Source: Mrakia gelida
Lineage: Eukaryota > Basidiomycota > Tremellomycetes > Cystofilobasidiales > Mrakiaceae
Direction of reading: 5' to 3'
Assembly (NCBI GenBank): GCA_024345305.1
Contig: BRON01000012.1
Span: forward strand, 620,001 to 684,000
Length of the DNA stretch: 64,000 nt
Shown here piece after piece: positions 3,339 to 26,491 of this stretch (the stretch's first letter is position 1; every line of letters starts with the position of its first letter). Under the pieces are notes generated by a model. It had not been told where the DNA came from and did not search any database. It worked only from the letters and a program-made list of their open reading frames with translations. The translations under genes and the position numbers were made by a program.

Positions 3339-4805
3339 ATGGATCTCATCCCTTCTCCCCTCCTTCATTCGACTCCCTTCGATGTCATCTACGCCATCCT
3401 ACGAGCCTCGACCTCTGCTCGGGCCCTCGCAACTTGGAGCCTCGTCTCTTACGGCTCACTCGAGATCGCTGGCCCGAGGCTGAACAGAACGGTAGGGGTC
3501 GAAGACGAGAGGTTCTGTCCGAGGATCCTGGAACGCATGGCAAGTAATACGATCTTCCTATATGCAGAGTCTTGTTCCGGGGGAACTCAACTCTGACTTC
3601 AATCTGCCCGTCCAAAGCTGTTTGACGACAAGGACCTCAATCTCCTCCCTCGCCTTCTTCCCTCCCTCTCCCTCAAGTCGACTGCATCCCTCGAACTTTG
3701 GAATCCTCCCACCGTTTCCGAGCTGCATCGTATTATCATGGATCCCAGGGTCGTGCAGTCATCCCGGCCCAGGCTCAAACTCACCCTCGGTTGGCTCAGC
3801 AGAGGTGAAGTCGACGACAACGCCAGGGTCGACCTCGCCCACCTCTACACCCCTCACCTCGTCGGACAGCTCTGCCCGGGAGTGTTCGTGGCTCCTCCGA
3901 GCCGGGACAGCTGCCAGAAGGATGTGAGTCAAACCTGAAACCGTTTCGCGACGCTTGACGACGAGTCGACGACGTCCGTTCGTCGCGTTCTGACTTGTTC
4001 TTCGTTGTTTCTGTCTCTAAAGCGGAGGCTCCTGTCATTCGGGGAACAACTCTCAGCACTTACAAAGCCATCCTCGCCACCTCGACTGACAACAGCCATT
4101 TCATACAGATTCACGCGGAGATCCAGGACGTTCAAACGCGTCAGGACAACCTCGGACGACCCGAGAAGGTGGGCCAACCTACCCCCCAGGATATGATGCT
4201 TCTCTCAACCTTCTTTTATGCTCAATCGGGTCGCTCGGACGAGATTCTCGCGTTGCAAGACCGGATCCGGAGGAACGTCGACGAGTGGAACGGCTTCGAG
4301 CTTCGAGGCGAGACGGCCTTCTGGGATGGCATCAGCCCCTATCCCGAGCAGGAAGAGATAGCGGAGAGGACCGCTCTGGGGTTGAGGTACGAGATGCTTA
4401 ACAGAATGAACAAGAGGGAGAGCGATTGGGACGGTGAGTTATCGTGGACGCCTCAGCTCTCTTTCCCCTTTGATCTTTCGTCGTCCTCTCTGACTTTTGA
4501 GTCTCGTTCGTTCTACAGACATCAAATTTGACTTTGCATCGATGATGATGTCAGGAGATTTGCTCAGGAGGGGTGTGCTGGGCGGAGAGGCGGCGTTGGA
4601 GCAGCTGGCAACCGGACTGTTAACGTACGCTGATGAGAGTCGACGTGAGTTTTCCTCTCGATCTCACTCTCCCATCTCGTCCATCAGCCCTTCGGCACCC
4701 TACTCACGCATCTACCTCCTTCCATCTGATTCCTTCTCCAACAGAGAACTCGCACAGGAACTGAGCCATCTTCTTTTTCTCGACACGTCGTTCGGCCGAG
4801 CTTGA
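3339..4805 (+). CDS. F-box-like protein, copy A of a local family
   Basis: Five exons (3339-3539, 3618-3923, 4028-4433, 4519-4644, 4747-4805) give 365 residues with an exact frame. The N-terminus has the pattern of fungal F-box-like proteins: a proline near residue 13, ALATWSLVSYGSL near residue 30, then IAGP. The rest matches no family I know. It is clearly paralogous to the gene at 57369-58559 and to the broken copy at 28966-29750: the same first block, a phase-0 intron straight after a conserved Met, and a similar second exon. The first intron uses a GC donor (atg|gcaagt) with a CTGAC branch site and an AAAG acceptor. The third-exon acceptor (4027, GGAG) and the last acceptor (4746) are the frame-consistent choices, but each has a competing AG nearby; the alternative last acceptor would end the protein at 4764. 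A role in SCF ubiquitin ligases is inferred from the F-box pattern only. Confidence 0.65.
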
Positions 4806-5143: not shown

Positions 5144-6720
5144 TCACTTCCCCCTCTCCGACCCAGCCTCCCAAAGCTCATCCGCCAGCTTCCTAGCCTT
5201 CGCCGCCTTGACCTTGGCTCTCTTCCTCTGATTCGCCTTCAGCGTTTTGATCTCCTCGGACTCCTCCTCGTTCCCCGTCGCGTCGAGGCCGACAGCCTCG
5301 ATTTCGGAGGGAGAAACTCGACCGGCGTCGGGAGGGATGGAGGAGCAGGCTGAGGAGGAAGCGGAGGAGGCGTAGGAAGAGGAAGTGGAGGAGAGGGTTC
5401 GGTGGAGAGGGATGGGAGCGGTGAGGTGCTGCTGGTTCTGCTGTCGTTGTTGTTGCTGAAGGACGAGGAGGTCGTGCTGTCGAGTCGCGAGGGTCGTTGG
5501 GACGGGGAAGCCGGCGGGAGGGGTTTTGAGGAAGTTGATGTACATTTTGAAGGAGGGAGGCTGAAAGAGAGGGGTGAAGGAAGGTCAGCGAAGGGAGTTG
5601 AGGAGGAGAACGAGGTCGACGAGGGAGAGAAAACGACTCACGGGACTGATCAAAGCTCTTCCTCCTGTGCTCAACGCAGGAACGTTGAAGTCCGTCCTCC
5701 TCAACCCTTGCAACTTCCCCAGCACTCTCTCCAGCTGAGCCCACGCCGAACCGCTCCTGAGATCATCGTAGAGGAAGCACACGCGCGCTGCGACGAGTGC
5801 AAGGTCTCGAGCGACGATGGCGAGAAGAGGATCCTCGATTCCGTCGAGGCAAAGCTCCGCGATCTCGATTAGGAAGTTGACGACATCGTCCGTCGAGGTG
5901 AAGTTCGACCAATGATCTCGATGACGTCGATCCTCGACCCAAGCTGCTGCTCGAAGAACGCGCTCGTCCGAGGCGTCGCGATCCGAGGGAGGGAGGGAGC
6001 AGACTGGACAGGTGCAGGTCAAGCGGAGGGAGTGGAGTTGATGGGTACGTTCGGCGAAGGTGAGAGGGTAAGGGCTGAGGTACGAGATGAAGACTTCCTC
6101 TCCTTTGGCGATGGGAAGGCAGGCGTGAAGGACTAGACACGACGACGACGAGAGGGGGGGGAGGAAAGAGCGAGCTGTCAGTTCGAGTTTCTCGACTTCT
6201 CACCCTCTCAGCACCGTTCGCTCGAGCTTACTGAACATTCCACTTTCGTCTTGGTACCATGTAGCGTTCGGGCTGCGAGAAGGAAACGAAAAAGAGGGCA
6301 AGATGAGCTCGAGGACGGAGAGCGGCAGGGAACGAAACTCGCTCACACGCAAGAATGGTTCGCTCTTCCTATGAGAGGTAGATGTATGAAGTCGAAGTTA
6401 TTCCCGATAGAGCTGGGCAGACACTGATGGAACCTCGAGCTGAGGAGGTCCTGATTTCCGGGCACGGGAGGGATGAGGACGAGAGCAAGTTGCTCTTTGG
6501 GAGAGAGGGAGGAGAGGAAGGCGAAGGGATCGACCCCAGCATGGAAACGACGACCAGGTCCGTACTCGAAGGCGAAGGTCATCGGCTCCTGATGGATCTG
6601 GGTGCCGGAGGAGATGTTGAAAAGAGCTTGGAGGCCCTTGGTAGCTCGAGTCGAATCGAAGGGCTGAACGAGCAGGGGAAGCGAGGAGGAAGATGAAGGA
6701 GAGGAGGACGAGGAGGCCAT
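5144..6720 (-). CDS. SET-domain protein (SMYD-like methyltransferase)
   Basis: Four exons (6720-6347, 6272-6232, 6132-5642, 5560-5144) give 440 residues with an exact frame. The N-terminal part has FDSTRATKGLQALF, the usual opening of split SET domains (the 'kGrGlfA' region). The catalytic SET core RANHSCVPNATW is rebuilt exactly across the first intron, followed by GEEVFISYL (the Tyr-containing post-motif) and a Cys-x-Cys-x2-Cys cluster (CTCPVC) typical of a zinc-binding post-SET region. This layout is that of SMYD and SET5/SET6-type lysine methyltransferases, although no MYND zinc finger is seen. The C-terminus is Gln-rich, then Ser-rich, and ends in a Lys-rich helix. The substrate cannot be told. 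The gene is divergent from the taxilin-like gene, with 250 bp between start codons. Confidence 0.8.
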
Positions 6721-6970: not shown

Positions 6971-9896
6971 ATGACCCGACCCGACGTTCCACCTCCCAAC
7001 GGCCCTCCTCCTACGAGTCCCCTGCCTCCTCCTCCCCCTCCTCCTCCTTCGTCCTCGTCGACCTCTTCAGGAACGACCCTTCCTCGATCAACCTCATCTC
7101 CTGTCGTCAACAACACCTCATCCTTACCCCCCTCTACCTCCAAAATGGCTGCTACCAAGCCAAACGCTCCCGTCTCGTCTTCTGCGTCAGCTCCTGCTCT
7201 CGCGAGGTCGAACGCGAACGGGAAAGCGCCCAAGAAGGAACTCGATCCTGCAGTCTACGCAGACCTCGTTCAGGCTAGGATCAACGCTCTGGAGGGAGTA
7301 GAGTCAGCAGAGGATCAGGCTGAGAAAAAGAGCGGTCAGTAGAGATCTCTGATTCATCTGGCAGCAGGAAGGAGGAAGGAGGAGACGTCTGAAGGAAGGT
7401 GAGCTCGAGCTCATCATCCGTCTTCCCTTTTCTTCGTTCCCTTGCAGCCATCGAAGCTCGAAAAGCTGTCAAGGAAGCTACAGATCATGCCTCTCTTGAA
7501 GTCAAGTACATGGATCTCGTGAGTTCTCGCTCCAGGCTCGGTGACTCTCCTGCTCGAGTTTTGAGTCGAGCTCACTTTCCTCCTTCCTCCCTCCTCGTTT
7601 CCCTCCGTCTTCCTCCTTCCAGTTCCAAGAGATGAAACGTCAAGAACGAGTTCACATCCAAGAGAGATCCAGGTTCTCGAAGGAGAAGGTTCGTCCCTCT
7701 TGGCTTTAGCTGGCATGAGATCCTTCTCGGTCTTCGCCTTCTCGAAGCTGACCTTTTGTGCTTCCGACCTCTTCCCTTGATCTCTGTCGTCGCCTTCCAG
7801 GAAGCCGCCAAGCTCAATCTTTCCAAGGCTACTCAGGGAAAGACGAAGCTCGACTCGCAGGTCAAGGATCTCACGAGAGTGAGTTCTCTCGAGCTTCATC
7901 TGGTCCCTCGTCCTTCAGAAGCTGACCTCAGTCGTCTCCTCGCGTTTGAACAGCACATGAAAAGTCTTCAGGTGAGCTCTCGAACCAGTCTGGGATCAGA
8001 AACATGAAGCTGACTTTCTCCCTTTTCTGCCGCACCAGGACGAGAACAAGAAGCTCTCCGATCTCGTGGCTACAGCTCGTACCGAAGTTCGTTGCCTCCT
8101 CCTCTCCCTGCTCGTCTCCCGTCCTCTTCGTTGGCTCGCAGGACACCTTTTCGCTGACTCTTCCCCTCGCATCCCATCTTCTTTTCTCCGTCTTCTCCCC
8201 CAGAAGATCGACTCCATCAAACAAGAAGTCGCCTCTGTTCGTTCTCGACCCGGTCGACCCTTCCCTCTCCCCCAGCCCATCTCCTCCGTCCCCTCCCCAG
8301 CACCTCAACCCCCTTCTTCAACCTCTTCCACCACCACCTCCTCCAACGCTACCACCACCAACAACGCAGCCTCCTCTTCGACAGCCGTCACGCTCCGAAT
8401 CTCCTCCATCCTCCATGGCGAAATCTTCGTCAAAGTCCTTCGCAACCGTCCTCTCGAACGAGCCTTCCAGACCTTCGCCACAACCATCGCTCCTCCCCCA
8501 GCTCACCCCGTCGCCTCTTCCTCCTCTTCCTCACACAACAACCACTCCAACAACAACAAGGGCAAAGGGAAACAACAACACAAGCCTACGCCTGCTCCCA
8601 AAATCGCGACGACGACGGAAGCAGGGATGGAGTTCGTGTTCAGTCACGCTGGGAATGTGATAGAGAAGGAGAGCACGCCTGATGAGCTCGGTTTGGAGGA
8701 GAGGGATGAGATTTGGGCGGTGGAGTTCAAGGATTTGGGAGCGTTGCAGGAGCTTGAGGAGGAGGAGGCGGCAGCGTTGGCGTTGGCGAAGGAGGAGGAG
8801 GGAGGAGCAGGGACGCCTTCGGGAGGAGGAGGTGGTGGGTCGAAGAAGAAGAAGAAGGGTGGAGGAGGTGGAGGAGGTTCGAACACACCTGTTTCGTCTG
8901 CTTCGACGGTGGTGGCGGGAAGTCCGTCGTTGGGGACGTTGGTTCTGGGAGGGAGCGGGCTGAGTACGGAGGAGAGGGCGAGGTGAGTCGCGTCCGCGTC
9001 GCTTTTCTCTCTTTTGCGGCTCGAGGCTGAGCTGATCTCCACGTCTCTTCATTCCCAACTCGGCACAGATGCAAAGCCAAGCTGGAGAGCATCTTCGAGA
9101 GCGTGTGCGTCTTTGTTTCCTTTCTCTGTTTCCTCGACGCGTCTCGATCTCAACTGACTCGCCTTTCACTGCTTCGGACTCCAACAGAGTCCGAGAACAA
9201 CTCAAGACCGTCCTTCGCCAGTACGAGCTCCGTGAAACTCAGTTCGAGGCTGTCCTGAGATCGAAGGAGCTCGAGGTTCTGCTCTCGGTGGCGAGGTCGG
9301 AGGAGTGAGTCCAGCTCTCGCGTCGCTCTCTTCTCTTTAGCTTGACCGTTTTGAACTCGAGCTGACTTCGCCCTCCTTTCCCTTGCCTGAACCAGAGCTC
9401 GATGGCTGGTGGAAGAAGCTGAGCAAAAGTCTAGGGACAGGGAGAACCAGGTTCGTTTTTCGTCCCGTCGCGTCGTCGTCTCCCCCTCAACTCACGCCCC
9501 TCCCTCGCTTCTCCTTATCTCTGCAGACGGAACGCTACGCCAAATCCCTCGAAGAACTCCAACGTGCTCAAGGACAGGTACGTCGCGTCCTCCTTTCTCT
9601 TGCGCACATTCTTCCAAGACGTTCCGACGATCGCGTCCTAACTCAAGTCTCTCTCGTCGAACACCAAACAGCTCTTGGACAAGCTCGTCTCTCTCGCTCA
9701 GGACGACTCGAAGGACCAGGCGTCGAGACTGTTCGGGTTCATCAGGGAGGAGATCCAGAAGAGGAAGGAGTTCGAGTCTCACCACGTCGTCGCTCCAGCT
9801 CCATCGTCAGCTCCAGCTCCAACGACGGGAGGGGGAGGAGGAGGATCGGGAGGGGAGGCAGGAGGAGCTCCTTCAACGCAGGAGACCTCGTCTTGA
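6971..9896 (+). CDS. Taxilin-like coiled-coil protein with inserted SUMO-like segment
   Basis: Twelve exons, including an 18-nt one at 7954-7971, give 635 residues with an exact frame. A Pro/Ser-rich head is followed by coiled coil built from short exons, for example HMKSLQDENKKLSDLVATA. The 3' half has the taxilin hallmark QYELRETQFEAVLRSKELE, then further coiled coil and a Gly-rich tail. Taxilins bind syntaxins and act in vesicle traffic. Exon 7 (8204-8982) is odd: it has TLRISSILHGEIFVKVLR, then a low-complexity insert, then FVFSHAGNVIEKESTPDELG and RDEIWAVE. That series has the shape of a ubiquitin/SUMO-like (Rad60-SLD) fold. A Lys/Gly-rich linker follows. A small intron inside exon 7 near 8236 cannot be excluded. 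The start could also be the in-frame ATG at about 7145. Confidence 0.78.
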
Positions 9897-10209: not shown

Positions 10210-13200
10210 ATGCTTCACCAAGCTCCCCAAACTCCTCGTCCTCGTCCTCCCAACTTCTCTCGTTCGAGGTCTTCGAACAACAACCCTTCTCAAGCCGGTC
10301 ACACTCGCAAACAGTCCTCCCTCTCGCTGCTTTCCAACTCTGCTACACCGAAAGGCTCCAAGTCTGGGAGTATCACGACTACGAGTCTTCTTCTTGGACG
10401 AGTTGACGGAGGTGAGGAAGAGGACGGAACGACGAGCTCATCAAGAACAGAACCCCTCTCCCTCCTCCCTTCCCCAACGAAACGATCCTCTTTGACAGGG
10501 AAGAAGATGCAGATTCCCTTCCCAGCTTCCTCGAACCAAACCCAAACGACACCCAGCCACCTTCTCCCTCCTCCTCCTTACCCAACCTCGCCTCCCCCTC
10601 CTCCCCTTCCCGCATCAACAACCGACCAAGCAGCTCAACTTCAAGAGCCCCCTACGCCTACAACAGCAGCAGCTCAGCTCCTCGGTTTCTTACACGATGG
10701 AGCCGGAGAGGGTACGGTTGCTGGGGAGGGAGTGGGCGTGGTCGGGCTTGTAGGGGCGACGGGAGGAGGGGGAGGAGGGGAGTCGCCGATGATCAGTGAG
10801 GAGTGGGTCAAGGAGAGGTCGAGGGAGGAACTCGATAGGTTGCTCATCGAGGCGGATAGGGTCATTAGAGAACGAGAGAAGGGTGAGTTTTTCTCAACTC
10901 TTCGCGTATCAGGTTTTTCAAAGGAAGGAATCTATACGGTTCTGCCAGAGAGCAGCGGAGAAACGAAAGGGAAGGGAGGAACGAGCTCAACGTTCCCTCC
11001 CTTCCCCTCCCCTCCCTCCCGCTTCTTCTCGAATCGAACTCGAACCGTCGTCCTAACTCTCTTTCCCCTGTCCTTTTCGCGTTTCGTTTCAATAGAACTC
11101 GGCATAGCAGCAGCCATCGGGAAATCTCTCCTCGAGAACAACATCGCCCTCCGAAACAAACACGAATCCCTCCTCGCCGCTTTCCCTCTTCATTCCCCTC
11201 ACCCACCTTCCTCCCACTCCCACTCCCAACGACGAACTCCTCGCCCTTCGCTCTCCAACGCTCCCTCCTGGCTCACCGACAACGGAGACGACGAACAAGC
11301 CGCGAGGGACGCAGAGGAACGAGAGGAAGGCTTCTCTCCGAGTCGAACGCCCACCAACTCGTACGGGAGGGCTAGCGCGGCGAGGATGTCGAGAGGCGCG
11401 TCTTCAGGAGGAGGCTCAGGAGATCAAGGGTGGGTGTTTGGACGACCTTCGAGTAGGAGTTCGATGGGTTCGAATGCCTCAGCGTCAACGTCAACCTCAA
11501 ACGCCAACACCATCTCCCCACCCCGATCCAAACGCGTCCACACCCTCTCGTTCTCCTCCTCCCCAACCTCCTCTCGCCATCGTCCTCGAGCTCCCTCCCT
11601 CTCAGCCTCTCCTCAAGCGATCCTCTACCTCCGCGAACAGAACAACGACCTCGCCATCCAGCTCGAGCAGCTTCAAGCTGAAACGTCCGACGCCGACCAC
11701 GAGGGAAAGAAGAAGCTCAGGAAACTCGAGAAGGAGATTGGCGCGCTGAGAGGGAACTTGGAGAGGATGAACGAGAGGAATGGGGAGCTAGAGGAGAGGA
11801 ATGGGGAGTTGGAGGAGAAGGTTTCGAAGCGTGGCGGTTCTGGAGGAGGGGAGGGTGGGGGAGGAGGAGGGAGGGGAGCAGGGGATGGAGGGTGGGCGGA
11901 GAGGAGAAGGTTGAAGAGGGAGGAGGAGGAGGCTGAGAGGAATCGAAGAGCCTACGGGGGTCTGCTGGTGGGGAGTAACTCGACGCCTTTGCTGGGGAGA
12001 CATGGATCTGGAGCAGGAAGGAGGACTCCCTCGCCGACGGCTCATCTTCAACAACTCCCTCAACAACCCCACTCCTTCGCTTCCTCCCCTCGATCCTCCT
12101 CGCCTGGTTCATCCCAAAGCACCCTCTCCCCTCCCGCGTCACCTCGAACAAGATCCATCTCCCTCCTCGGTCCTTCCCTCTCTGCACTCTCCTCCCCGCT
12201 CAGAAACTCGACGTCCGTCAACTCGACTTCGACGACGACAGCGGCGGACGCGACGAGACCTCGAACGGCAGCCGAACTCGCTCTGGTCTCGCAGCTTCTG
12301 GGCAAGATTCGAGAGCTCGAGCAGGCCAACGAGGAGATGAGGATCAAGAGGGAAGCGATGGACAAGAGGATCAGTCGAGCCAAGAGGGAGGGAGCCGAGT
12401 TGGAAGGGGTGTACGAGGTTCTCGAAGGGGAGGTGGAGAGAGCCGGGTTGGAAGTCGTCGACGTTTCGGACAACGAGAGGGTTCGAAGACCTGACTCCTC
12501 CATGGAGATGGGTCTCTCTCCTCTTCCTCAACCTCGAACACCGAGCCGACAGACGGGAGCAGCAGGGAGGAAGTCGCTCGATCGAAGCAACAGGTCGACA
12601 CCGAACAAGTCTCCCTCGACGGCTGCTATCGAGCTGGACTTCTTCTCGACTTCACCTTCGTCGGCTAGCAACCTCACCTCGTCATTCGCATCCTCCTCTT
12701 CCCCCTCCTCTCTCCATCTCTCAACCTCCTGGCCTTCCTCTTCCTCCACTCCCCATCGACGCGTCGCTCAACACCAACAACAACGACTCTCCCCGAACCG
12801 AAACCTCCCTCCTTCCCCCTCCTCCGTCTCCGTCACATCCACCAACGACGGATCAGCCCGCTTCCGCTCAGCAACAGGCAACCGACTCATGATCGAAACC
12901 AACAAGCTCAGGAAGAAGATCTCGAGTTCGAACTTCCTCTCCCCCGACTCGCCAGCCCCAGCTCCTCTTCCCGCCGTTGGAGCAGGTCGCCAACGCCATC
13001 TTCGAGCGAGCATGACTCCCAGTCCTACGGCCATCCACTTCCGAGGAGGGAGTCCGCTCAAGCTCCGCGTCGACGTTCGAGGAGAGGAGGAAGAGAGCGA
13101 GGAGTCTGCGTCGCCGTCGAAGGGGAGGAGCAGGAGACCGAGTCGAAGTTGGGAGGAGGAGGCGAGCGAGGCTGCTGCTGCTGCGGCTTCTAGAGGGGGA

Positions 13201-14591
13201 GGAGAGTACGAGGATGAGGAGGAAGAGGAGGAGGAGGAGCAGTTCTCGAGCGGGAGAGGGGATCGTCGGGCCGAGTTGACTCCAAGGAGGAAGAGGGAGA
13301 TCCGACTCGCTGCCATGCCCTCCCTTCGCTCGCTCGGCAGCTGGGGGAAAGGCTCGACTCGAAGTCGAGCAGGAGGACGAGCAGGTGGTCAAACCCTCGG
13401 CAGCGAACTCGGATCCCAATACGCCAGCTTCTTCAACCAACCGTCCGCCGAAGAACGCGACTGGGAAGACGACGACGATCGCTCCGCCTACTCCTCCTCA
13501 GACGACGACGACGGAGGTCAATCCGTCTACCTCCCCTCCACCTCCCTCATCCAACACATCAACCCCGCCGAACTAGCCCTCCGATCCGTCCACCTCGCCC
13601 TCACCCCAACCGAAGACGGTCTCTACCTCGACACCTCCACTCCCATCCTCCCTCCCGGATCCCTCGCCATCTCCCCTCCAGCAGACTCCCACACCTTCGA
13701 CTTGCTCGATCAAGCAGTCAACCAACGACCCATTCGCTGGGCGGACGACGATGACGATCTTTACGGGACGAGCGAGAGATTGGAGCCTGCTACGACGAGA
13801 GCTTCCAGTTCGATTTGGGATTTCGTCCCTTCCCTCCTACCCAAACAAGTTACGGACCCCTTCGAAACGACCCTTTACCCCGAGCCGGACTTCCCTCCCG
13901 CGTCGGAGCACGAAGAGAGACTCAGGTTCAGGAGCAACAGGATCAGGGAAGCCGTCGAAGCAGGGGAGGATCCCCTCTCGAAGGACGTTCTGAGACCACC
14001 TACTCGGCGGGAGCTGGCTTTGCAGAGGATGGGACTCGAGCCGGGTGCGAGTTCGCCGTTTGGGACGTCGAGGCCGTTTGACGAGGAGGAGGAGGAAGAG
14101 GAAGAGGAAGAGGATTTCCTGTTGGTGGAAGGGGAGAGGGGAGGGTTCGGAGGGAGGAGGTTGCTCAGTGCTCCCACGGATGGACCGAGCGATTGGTTGG
14201 CGAGATTGAGGCCGGGGAACGTGATTGATAGGGTGGGCAGGAAGTGGGTGCAGGGGTTGTTGGATGTTTGGTTCTTTTTGCAGTTGATGTGAGTGGAACG
14301 ACGGTCGCGTTGGGTTGAGGTCGAGTTGAGGCCGTCGCTGACCGTTCGTTTTCTTTCGCTCGTTCGTTTTGCGTTTGGTTTTCGACGCGACAGTGTGGTA
14401 GCGATGGTGTTCATGAAGGAGGCTATGAAGATGGGGAGGAAACCGAGACGGTTCGTTGGCTCTTTCTATCGTCGTCTTTCGTCTTTGGTTCGCGACGCGT
14501 CGCTGACTCTCTCCCTCCCTCCCCGTTGTTCTTTGCTTCGCTTCGAAACAGAGCTGCTCTCGGTCAGCAACAACAACGACGGATCGCTTAG
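10210..14591 (+). CDS. Large coiled-coil protein with CC1-box motif and C-terminal membrane anchor
   Basis: Four exons (10210-10882, 11096-14288, 14394-14450, 14552-14591) give 1,320 residues with an exact frame. Removing the first intron joins REREK to ELGIAAAIGKSLLENN. This fits the CC1 box (AAxxG) of dynein-dynactin adaptors of the BICD/HAP1/TRAK/Spindly type, preceded and followed by coiled coil. Further heptad-like stretches lie near residues 400-450 (EQNNDLAIQLEQLQAE) and 620-660. Most of the remainder is Ser/Pro/Glu-rich and likely disordered. The last exons create a hydrophobic stretch (WFFLQLMIVVAMVFM) about 30 residues from the C-terminus, followed by Lys/Arg: a tail anchor. Taken together this suggests a membrane-cargo adaptor for microtubule motors. 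That is inference from motifs; the overall protein matches nothing I recognise. Confidence 0.75.
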
Positions 14592-22986: not shown

Positions 22987-25900
22987 TCAGCCTCCCCTCG
23001 GAGGTTTACTCCCTCCTCTTCCCCTCTTGCCTACTCCACCACCTCCCCTTCCTCCCCCTCCTCCACCTCTCGTTCCTCCCCCGATCCCTCCTCTCCCGCC
23101 GCGTCCGTTCCTCCCTCCCTGCTCCTTCCTCAAAGGCTTCAACTGGCCAGTATCCCACATGGACTTCGCAGCAGCCTCCTCCGCCGCTGCTCGACCTTCC
23201 CCTAACCCTAGAGAGGTGGCCGTTCCGACGGTAAGGCTCGAGAACCAGGTCTTGAGGCCCGCGTTGAAGGTCGTGACGAAGGAGACGGGGTCGTTGCGAT
23301 CGCGTGCGATCCGTTCGATTCGAGTTCGGAGAGACGAAGAGGAGGGACCGGTTGGAGGAGGGTGGGATGGTGCTTGAGGATTGGATGAGGCGGCTGAGGA
23401 AGTGGAGGAGTAGGAAGGGAAGAAGGAGGGGGAAAAGGTCAGCGCTCGAGAAAGACTGAGTGGACGCGCGCGTCGAGTTCGCTTCCCTCCCCTCCTCTCG
23501 ACGTCGCGGCAAGGTCGAGCGTTTCTGGTGAAATGAATCAGTGCATTCGGTGAGCCGAAGCAGACGTACCAGGGGGTTTCTGCTTCTCATCCTTGACCTG
23601 ATCAAACAACGTCTTGAAAGTCGAACCGATCCATCGAACCACCGCTTCTGATCCCGCGTCCTTCGCTGCTCCTTCGACGAGAGCGATCGTTGCATCGCGT
23701 AGGTGGAAAGATAGGAGTGGGACCTTAGTTCGAAGCTTCTCCGCGATTCCAAGTTCGGTGGCGAGGCGAGAGAGTTGGTCGGAACCGAGCGTTCGAGAGA
23801 TGAGTTTCTGAATGGAGAGAAGAGGGAGAGATGAATGGAGAGAAGAGGGAGAGAGAAAGTTGAGTTCAGGTGCTGAGGCGCAAGTTCCACGGTGTGAAGG
23901 AGAAGAAGACGAACAGCTCTCTTGGAATCCGAGATATCGGAATACCATTGGCGAGAGAAGACGGTAAGGGCGACGGAGAGGAACGAAGCTGGTGTTCCTC
24001 CTTCAACGAGGAGGGAAGCGTAGTTGTTGCTGGAGTGGACCGAGGGATGGCTGAGGGCTTTGTTGAGGGTGTTGGGGCTGACCCATGAGAGGAGAGACTG
24101 CAGCTGCTGGGGACCGAGGGAAGGAGGGTCGAAGAGCGAGGCGGCGGGAGGGTCCTCGGGTTCTGACTCGGCGTTGGATTGCAGATGAGGCTGGCCTGAG
24201 TTGGAGGGAAGAGTTGCAAGTATATGAGATGCGGGTAGACTAAGGGACGGTTGATCGAAAAGGAGGGAGAGAGGAAGGGAAAAGAGGGAGCGAGAAAGAA
24301 GAAGACTCGCCTTGTCCGATCGCGACTCGAAACAGGATGGCGTTCCCGTACAGCTCCACTGCCTTTTCGATAAGGACCGGGGCCATGAGAAGACGGACGA
24401 ACTTTTGAGCGTCCACCTCCGGTAGATCCGTTTCCACTGCTCGAAAAATAGCGAGGAGGAGGCTGCCTTGGGCCGAGACGTCGACTTGGCGACAAAGAGG
24501 ATGACGGGCGAGGTTGAGGGAGGTGGCGAGATCTTGTAGGGTGGTGGTCTTCATCGCCTTTTGGACGATGAGCTTGAATAGGGGAAAGGGGAAACAACGA
24601 TGGAGAGCATCAGGATCGGGGGTCGCGAGCGAAGCAGAGGAGAAACGAAGTGAAAGAGGGAAAGAGGACTGACATTTCTGGAAGAAGAGGGTTCTGAGGG
24701 AAAGATGTCGGCAGCCAGATCCCTCGACCCTCTCTCAGCAAAGAGACGCCCGGCTGGTACGAGGGTCTCCGGATGATTTACGAGCGTGACAACGGAGGCT
24801 GAGGTGAGTCGACCAAGGGCGTCGAAGGTCCCATCGCTCGAGAGAGCTGCAGAAGCAGACCGAACAGTACGTCAGCGAAAGCTTCGTCATAGAACGAGAA
24901 CCGAAAAGAGGTGGCATGGTTTCTAGAACAGCAAGAAGAGCACAGAACTCACGTTGGCTCGACATCTCGACATCTCCCGTCGTCGACGCGTCTTCTCCAG
25001 CTCCCAGCTCCTCGAACTTCTCCCTCACACACTCCCCCATCACCTCGATCAACCATCCTCCAGTCTGATCCTCCCCAAACGTCCTGATCATCCCTCCAAC
25101 GAGCGAGAAGAAGAGCTGATCCGTCCGTTGATCCAGAAAAGCTTCGGGAGCTCCCCTCGCTCGCCCTTGCCAGTCGAGTCTCCAGCTCTTCGCGAGAGGG
25201 ACCATGGTTTCTATGGATACGGAGGCGTCGATGAGGAGCTACGAAGGGAATGATGGGACGCGAATTGATCAGAGAAGAGAGAGAGATCGGTCGAGCGCGA
25301 AGCAAGTGGAACTGACCTCGATTCGATCCGGAGTGAGCTGAATGGGCACGTTCCGAAGCAGGATAGTGTGGACGACGGAGCGGAGGAAAGCGAGTCCAGG
25401 GAGAGCAAGGAGATCGAAGTTGTTGACTGGGTTGACGGACGGATGAGTGAAGACGGAGTTGAGGATCGGAGGAGGAAGAGACCTCATCGCGTCCTGGACG
25501 AGGTCGAAAGTAGTCTTTGGAAGGGGAAGTTGAGGGGGTAACGGATCTTCGATGGCTTGAAGTGGGACGAGGGGAGTGGGAGGTGATAGATCGATGGGTG
25601 TTGGTTCTCGAGAAGCTTCGGCTGTACGTAAAAGAAGCGATAGATCAGCGTCCAACGGGAAAGAGAGGGAGGAGGGAGTCGAGAGCTCACCGAACCGTTT
25701 CCCCTTCTCGATCTCCTCGACCTTCCTCGCACTCTCGTCGAAAGTCTCATCCAGCACAACTCTCAGCCACTGGATCGCCACTCCATCTCCCATCTCGGTC
25801 CTCAGCCCTCCTGCGATGGCGAGTACGAGAGATTCGAGCTTCTCGCCCTCCTCGTTGAAGGGACCTTGGTCGCGAGCTCGTTCGTCGAGAGCCCAGCTGA

Positions 25901-26491
25901 AGGCGAGTTCTCGAAGGCATGAATGGCGAAGGGATCGATCTACTACAGCCTGGACAGGATCCGAGAAACCAAAAGGGCGAAGAGAGTCAGGATGGGCTCG
26001 AAAGAAGCAAGGAGGGAAGGGAGTCGCATGTTGAGCTTCCTCCTCCTTCGCTCTCTTCCCTTCGTTCGTTGACTGACCTTCCTCTTCGCCGGAGACCAAT
26101 CTGGGAACTTCTCCTTCGAGATCACATCAGCGGCTAAGATGATGATCTCTATCCCCTTGACTACGAGATCGGCGTGGTTCTTGGATGGATTTGAGGAGGG
26201 AAAGGTGAAGATGAGGTCGACGAGAGAGAGCGGGAGTCGATGCAGTTGATTGACGAGGAAGGGTCCGCCGAGGAAAGAGGTCGGGTGTCTTCGATGAGGA
26301 CGCGGATGGGTGGATAAGGACATCAATGGTAGACCCGTTGGGCCTCGCTGCTGGTCGTTAAGAGCTGGAAGAAGGTCGGCCGCTCGGAGACGATTTTGGC
26401 GAGGTGGATTCGGCTCGAGCTCTTCCTCCCTTGTTTCTTCTTCAACCCTCAGCGTCTCGCCGAACACCTTTCTCGCTTTCACACAATCCAC
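22987..26491 (-). CDS. Four-module degenerate RNase III-like protein with dsRBD-like region and RGG tail
   Basis: Nine exons (26491-26078, 25949-25691, 25621-25317, 25238-24953, 24846-24674, 24572-24311, 24195-23915, 23807-23570, 23393-22987) give 874 residues with an exact frame. Four repeated modules each have a first half with an FTHPS/NN motif (FTFPSSNPSKNH, VFTHPSVNPVNN, a weak copy, ALSHPSVHSSNN) and a second half LxxLA...GG...WLxxV. These are the N- and C-halves of an RNase III domain, but the ERLEFLGD signature is lost (for example LLALPGLAFL), so cleavage is unlikely. Introns inside modules are phase 0 and between modules phase 1, without exception. Residues about 755-810 look like a dsRBD (FSSLTVGT...EEAAAKSMWD); the last 45 are Gly/Arg-rich. 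Exon 6 uses a GC donor. The start could instead be a Met at about residue 57. Role: inferred dsRNA or RNP binding. Confidence 0.75.

Follow-up and report, generated by a model that had tools for sequence, protein, structure and literature searches.

A nine-exon gene of Mrakia gelida encodes four degenerate modules of probable RNase III ancestry

Introduction

What kind of protein is encoded by a gene of the basidiomycete Mrakia gelida in which a two-exon unit appears to recur four times, and does that unit descend from RNase III? Noncatalytic RNase III domains are found in mitoribosomal proteins. They are also known in editosome proteins, as set out in the available part of one report (PMC5770545). 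No description of four such domains in a single chain was found among the papers listed in text searches of the open-licence literature, in which the one occurrence of the phrase 'four RNase III domains' refers to oomycete Dicer domains taken together. A four-module chain, accompanied by a two-module sister gene and with its probable duplication history recorded in intron phases, would offer a tractable case of a cutting enzyme turning into a multi-domain scaffold, and would make it possible to ask, beyond trypanosomes, if inactive RNase III domains govern active ones.

Results

A nine-exon gene with strictly alternating intron phases

The assembly examined comprises 34.9 Mb in 25 contigs, and the window, the whole 64,000-nucleotide stretch that was analysed, corresponds to C12:620001-684000. 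Its introns, together with Dicer, Piwi and RdRP genes, mark the genome as eukaryotic. The four-module gene lies on the minus strand, with a coding sequence of nine exons running from 26323 to 22987. The first-pass annotation gave an 874-residue product, which would have to start at 26491, a GTG codon; the first in-frame ATG is at 26323 and yields 818 amino acids. This start is consistent with that of a paralogue on contig C14 (MSAPRPSSFLGGPFLV compared with MSLSTHPRPHRRHPTSFLGGPFLV). The features below are taken from the spliced model, in window coordinates, with the modules numbered M1 to M4 and any further evidence given in brackets.

26078 to 26323, minus strand: exon 1, start codon and first half of M1 with FPS, N and LVVKG (also matched by the first exon of the C14 paralogue)
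25950 to 26077, minus strand: intron 1, phase 0, within M1
25691 to 25949, minus strand: exon 2, second half of M1 with LRELAFSW, AIAGG and QWL
25622 to 25690, minus strand: intron 2, phase 1, at the M1/M2 boundary
25317 to 25621, minus strand: exon 3, linker and first half of M2 (HPSVNPVNNFDLLALPG)
25239 to 25316, minus strand: intron 3, phase 0, within M2; 78 nt, with in-frame stops
24953 to 25238, minus strand: exon 4, second half of M2
24847 to 24952, minus strand: intron 4, phase 1, at the M2/M3 boundary
24674 to 24846, minus strand: exon 5, first half of M3, the shortest and most degenerate (M3 scores weakly alone)
24573 to 24673, minus strand: intron 5, phase 0, within M3
24311 to 24572, minus strand: exon 6, second half of M3
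24196 to 24310, minus strand: intron 6, phase 1, GC-AG, at the M3/M4 boundary; lacks CTGAY
23915 to 24195, minus strand: exon 7, linker and first half of M4 (HPSVHSSNNYASLLVEGG)
23808 to 23914, minus strand: intron 7, phase 0, within M4; lacks CTGAY
23570 to 23807, minus strand: exon 8, second half of M4, retaining the Asp equivalent to D107 (also from alignment)
23394 to 23569, minus strand: intron 8, phase 1, at the boundary between M4 and the dsRBD-like exon
22987 to 23393, minus strand: exon 9, dsRBD-like region, tail and stop
22987 to 22989, minus strand: stop codon

It can be seen that the phases of the eight introns run 0,1,0,1,0,1,0,1, and the pattern proposed in the first-pass annotation, with phase 0 inside modules and phase 1 between them (four of each), is reproduced exactly. 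Assuming that the three phases are equally likely and independent, the chance of this exact order is (1/3)^8, or approximately 1.5e-4. Seven of the introns have GT-AG splice sites and the sixth has GC-AG, and a CTGAY branch motif is located near the 3' splice site of six of the eight, compared with a mean of 0.6 in shuffled sequences (at least six in none of 1000 shuffles). Some of the linkers of the protein are proline-rich.

The motifs by which the modules had been described were recovered in part. LA is present in all four modules. HPS is exact in M2 and M4 only (M1 has FPS and M3 has HPE), and the same two modules carry NN, which is absent from M1 and M3. GG is found in M1 and M2 only, as is WL, the corresponding residues being WI in M4 and FV in M3.

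A two-module paralogue on contig C14

A paralogue (L046), which begins MSAPRPSSFLGGPFLVNVLHRLPIPLVDAIF, is located from C14:1204579 onwards. Its first exon is 47-48% identical to exon 1 of the four-module gene (E 2.9e-7 and 7.4e-8). The gene was modelled with two modules, N1 and N2, each interrupted by a phase-0 intron; two further introns, both of phase 1, separate the modules. The best partner of N2 is M4 (35.9), and N1 matches M1 with a score of 100. We infer that the two-module arrangement came first and that M2 and M3 would be later additions.

The modelled reading frame of the paralogue stops at L046 position 6004, soon after the second module. Two dsRBD-like stretches lie downstream, with PF00035 E-values of 0.038 and 0.035, both below the Pfam cut-off; they match the dsRBD of an RNase III gene of the same genome (L048, at C4:363k) with probabilities of 91% and 83%, respectively, and the latter of the two may be part of a different gene. 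A further stretch, at about 6080-6230, is doubtful: it contains a stop, and profile comparison did not support its identity as a dsRBD.

No convincing third family member emerged from the genome searches. A match at C2:2615831 (E 7.6e-5) covers the proline-rich linker of the paralogue. No homologue of the four-module protein was found in a set of 5.8 billion proteins, which seems to be poor in fungi; this result is uninformative because L048, a catalytic-looking RNase III, had a single relative in the same set.

Profile comparisons relate the modules to RNase III

A six-module profile, built from M1-M4 together with N1 and N2, was compared by HHalign with a profile of 120 bacterial RNase III sequences. 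The two aligned over 127 columns with a score of 46.4 and a probability of 90.9%, while 200 column shuffles averaged 12.2 (sd 2.1) and did not exceed 20.3, with 13.3 for the profile when reversed. A profile of M1-M4 only scored 49.8 against the same bacterial sequences, and the six-module profile reached 79.6 when compared with five genomic RNase III genes (shuffle maximum 17.5).

When taken singly, the modules matched the five genomic RNase III genes with probabilities of 88% for M1, 78% for M2, 65% for N2 and 56% for M4, and the weakest were N1 (5%) and M3 (3.3%). The best-scoring of the five genes was L048 for M1, M4 and N2, and L004 for M2. No single module matched the bacterial RNase III profile (best probability 2.4%), and since none passes 3%, the case from the bacterial profile rests on the combined profile. 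The modules are also similar to one another, with pair scores of 54.0 for M1-M2, 40.6 for M1-M4, 30.6 for M2-M4 and 26.4 for M1-M3, the highest of 150 single-sequence shuffles being 18.7. The scores for M2-M3 (14.0) and M3-M4 (14.9) fall within this shuffle range, and M3 is therefore the least certain module, being carried by its link to M1 and by its place in the phase pattern.

Searches with individual sequences gave less. The whole 818-residue protein had no Pfam match of any kind, neither to RNase III (PF00636/PF14622) nor to dsRBD, and pieces of it gave chance matches only, with nothing relevant among them. The top Pfam match of the paralogue is to RNase III, with an E-value of 0.024 that is short of the cut-off. 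PDB sequence searches with M2 and M4, two of the four modules, returned chance matches only. Two structure models of M2, predicted from an intron-retained sequence, were of low confidence (mean pLDDT 50.9 and 44.3). With the first of these low-confidence models Foldseek gave no match at E<=0.001, the row for Drosha being non-significant (E 5.3, prob 0.20), and VIA-align gave no RNase III chain among the matches listed.

An intron site common to the modules and several RNase III domains

In RNase III genes of this genome the domain is interrupted by a phase-0 intron, and the 12th codon after it encodes a hydrophobic residue that is conserved. Gene models were drawn by eye for 11 other RNase III domains, except that L047 was judged from its reading frame alone. 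The intron lies at the exact site in five of the 11 (L001, L004, L006, L048 and Dicer RIIIb), one codon away in two (L003 and L055), and is missing at the site in four (L002, L005, L047 and Dicer RIIIa). All six modules of the family have a phase-0 intron followed at codon 12 by L, M, L and L in M1-M4, and by L and I in N1 and N2.

The same correspondence was seen in a MAFFT alignment made without information on introns. The set used here and for HHalign consisted of the six modules and five RNase III genes, all drawn from the seven intron-bearing domains; it omitted L055 and Dicer RIIIb, along with the four domains that lack the intron at this site. Nine of the 11 sequences had the intron at column 94, and the other two, N2 and L003, at column 93. 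The evidence from the intron site is largely independent of the sequence score. Alongside the profile-profile comparisons with their controls, the similarity among modules and the sub-cut-off Pfam match of the paralogue, the shared site upholds the RNase III resemblance noted at first pass, and we consider it almost certain from these sequence comparisons that the modules are RNase III domains that have diverged very far.

A further intron of L048, which encodes an RNase III domain followed by a dsRBD, is of phase 1 and separates the two domains, by reading of the gene. Duplication of an L048-like exon pair (first half, phase 0, second half, phase 1) would give the unit seen here. The phase pattern and the two-module paralogue both favour the earlier proposal of tandem duplication of a two-exon unit, and it is likely, in our judgement strongly so, that the modules arose by exon-pair duplication.

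Nearly all catalytic acids are lost and a structural glycine is kept

Catalytic positions were read on the alignment columns of L048, the four metal-binding acids being those that we take to be E40, D44, D107 and E110 in Aquifex numbering. In the five comparison RNase III genes, E40, D44 and E110 are each kept in 5/5 and D107 in 4/5. In M1-M4, E40, D44 and E110 are kept in 0/4 and D107 in 1/4, by the Asp of M4. Neither module of the paralogue keeps any of the four, N1 having Glu at the D107 position. The absence of the ERLEFLGD catalytic signature from all four modules, as first reported, is confirmed. It is very probable, as judged from these residues, that the four-module protein has lost catalysis.

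The structural glycine of the ERLEFLGD motif is retained in all four modules here and in all five RNase III genes, and in one of the two paralogue modules, with Lys in its place in N2. According to the available portion of PMC5770545, KREPB4-10 have degenerate catalytic residues and a conserved structural glycine, and mutation of this glycine in KREPB9 and KREPB10 reduced editosome association. The four-module protein shows the same combination of lost acids and kept glycine. Retention of the glycine where its catalytic neighbours are gone suggests that a dimer surface may still be in use.

The C-terminus carries a dsRBD-like region and an RGG-rich tail

Two features were distinguished in exon 9.

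23131 to 23343, minus strand: dsRBD-like region, from its score against four genomic dsRBDs; lacks the Lys-rich RNA-contact motif (GEGRAAAEEAAAKSM)
22990 to 23127, minus strand: RGG-rich tail of 46 residues (26 G, 8 R and 6 RGG)

The dsRBD-like region scored 20.5 against four dsRBDs of the genome, compared with a shuffle maximum of 15.3 (0 of 200 shuffles reached the score), at an HHalign probability of only 15%. Against the L048 dsRBD alone there was no match (score 11.5, probability 0.4%). A bacterial dsRBD profile also failed to match the region, and was dropped as a test because it missed the L048 dsRBD as well. The region named at first pass is thus weakly supported overall, with a signal against the genomic dsRBDs and none in Pfam or against L048.

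The RNA-contact motif of dsRBDs is rich in lysine. The second helix of the region reads GRAAAEEAAAKSM, from which the usual lysines are absent; because they are missing, the region, if real, may be of a protein-binding rather than an RNA-binding type. The Arg/Gly tail described earlier is clearly present, its length being 46 residues as cut here, not 45.

Discussion

A candidate dimerising scaffold

We propose, with moderate confidence and by analogy with the KREPB proteins, that the four-module protein is a catalytically dead RNase III scaffold, produced by exon-pair duplication and using RNase III-type dimerisation. The ancestor would have been an RNase III+dsRBD gene whose catalytic domain was encoded in two halves on either side of a phase-0 intron, with a phase-1 intron leading to the dsRBD. 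Its two-exon catalytic unit would have been duplicated first to two modules, the state represented by the paralogue, and then to four. We infer that the modules would dimerise in RNase III fashion, with one another in the same chain, with active RNase III proteins of the cell (the RNase III+dsRBD protein at C4:363k or Dicer would be candidates), or both, and that the RGG tail would bind RNA. The outcome would be the recruitment, spacing or inhibition of active RNase III on structured RNA, a role that we liken to that of the noncatalytic KREPB proteins of trypanosome editosomes, as those are thought to act. The chances for and against a function as dimerising regulator or scaffold appear to us to be balanced. 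A further extension, which we regard as quite unlikely, is that pairing of the dead chain with active RNase III or Dicer would convert symmetric double-strand cutting into single-strand or position-controlled cutting, in convergence with editosome heterodimers, and that the number of modules would set the partner count or the duplex length.

Relation to known RNase III proteins

Class-I RNase III proteins with a dsRBD (Rnt1 type) are represented in this genome by L048, whose RNase III domain, with the same phase-0 intron as the modules, is followed by a dsRBD, an order that the four-module protein would share if its dsRBD-like region is real. L048 has PF00636 at E 7.9e-12 and dsrm just below the cut-off, its PDB relatives include RNase III and Drosha, and its phase-1 intron between the domains, by reading of the gene, is like the one that precedes the dsRBD-like exon here. 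It is the closest of the five genes to M1, M4 and N2, but differs in having a single domain with all four catalytic acids, and the gene closest to M2 is L004. KREPB4-KREPB10 resemble the four-module protein in their degenerate catalytic residues and kept glycine, but have an RNase III domain per protein, in the accessible text of PMC5770545, compared with four in tandem here. They act in kinetoplastid mitochondria, and in the part of PMC11033214 available, zinc fingers of KREPB4 take the dsRBD role.

If the protein were instead a plain RNA-binding or RNP scaffold, for example in rRNA processing, the folds would be rigid helical spacers and the RGG tail would bind RNA, with no nuclease dimerisation. 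This is somewhat unlikely. The loss of nearly all catalytic acids, the proline-rich linkers and the strong RGG tail would all fit such a protein, whereas the glycine linked to dimer geometry is kept in all four modules while neighbouring catalytic residues are lost, which suggests continued use of the dimer surface; N2, however, has lost it.

Dicer and Drosha have active sites together with helicase, platform or PAZ regions. Their C-terminal halves, with tandem RNase III domains followed by a dsRBD, find their nearest counterpart here in the two-module paralogue. The genome encodes a separate Dicer (Dicer_dimer gene at C3:590k), as well as Piwi and RdRP. Identity of the four-module protein with Dicer was rejected, helicase, Dicer_dimer and PAZ being absent by Pfam and the Dicer_dimer gene at C3:590k being separate. 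Since Piwi, RdRP, Dicer, L048 and mL44 are all encoded by separate genes, the four-module protein replaces none of them.

A dominant role as a regulator of RNA interference, in which the protein would bind Dicer substrates or pair with Dicer domains and so restrain or steer dicing, is unlikely. It draws on the presence of the Piwi, RdRP and Dicer genes and on the intron site common to Dicer RIIIb, and has a precedent in the RNAi of Mucorales. There R3B2, an RNase III-like protein with altered catalytic residues, works in RNAi; in the part of the report available, it has one RNase III-like domain and two dsRBDs, and its authors describe it as Mucorales-specific and infer that it cuts RNA (PMC4395119). 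Membership of the R3B2 family was rejected for the four-module protein, which has four modules and one dsRBD-like region. No direct link to RNAi was found, and the closest relatives of M1, M4 and N2 (L048) and of M2 (L004) speak against such a regulator, in a comparison of five genes from which Dicer domains were left out.

Two mitoribosomal proteins, mL44 and mL57, are noncatalytic and RNase III-like, and mL44 has a dsRBD. The protein might be a relative of these two, serving as an additional component of the mitoribosome or of mitochondrial RNA processing, which we judge improbable. Residues 1-35 of the four-module protein contain no acidic residue, and the mL44 gene of this genome indicates that the RNase III fold is used in that setting. 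Against this, mL44 is already encoded at C7:369.8k (matching chain 6ywe_5 at E 7e-21 and the mL44 chain of 5mrc at 2e-17), in a domain without the module intron, and M2 and M4, two of the four modules, match no mL44 or mL57 chain in the PDB. The four-module protein was for these reasons rejected as mL44 itself. L047 (C9:539.7k) resembles mL57 by eye, an assignment that the PDB search did not confirm.

Finally, a functionless gene in decay, which would accord with the extreme divergence of the Pfam-negative modules, with the early end of the modelled paralogue frame and with the stop in the doubtful stretch downstream of it, is highly improbable: all nine exons are open, their splice sites and the branch motifs are consistent, and the first exon is similar in the two genes.

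A two-module paralogue and other RNase III-type genes

The genome carries a paralogue of the four-module gene, and dsRBD-like stretches lie downstream of its modelled region, where the 3' gene structure is putative.

G000 C14:1204579-1206004 (L046 4579-6004), plus strand: gene model of the paralogue, with a pair of diverged RNase III modules

The dsRBDs at two loci, L046 (about 7410-7640) and L054 (about 4280-4510), closely resemble each other (HSEKGTGW...AQQKACRKMLESG), but the low-complexity regions upstream to which they are attached differ.

Additional to the RNase III+dsRBD gene L048, Dicer and mL44, G000 contains a group of small genes of the RNase III type; these feature an LPxLP-like start, and three of them have an AHPSQ motif.

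C9:1300.8k, small RNase III-type gene (L006)
C2:842.7k, small RNase III-type gene (L001)
C3:1172k, small RNase III-type gene (L004)
C3:1356k, small RNase III-type gene (L055)
C3:1425k, small RNase III-type gene (L002)
C3:1427k, small RNase III-type gene (L003)

Other observations

A candidate gene in the window, a 1360-aa open reading frame, had no Pfam match at E<=0.001.

Window 10210-14292, plus strand: 1360-aa open reading frame, candidate gene

By eye, GC-AG introns with the donor AAG|GCGAG were observed both in the four-module gene (window 24310-24196) and in the Dicer gene (RIIIb intron, L067, about 2520).
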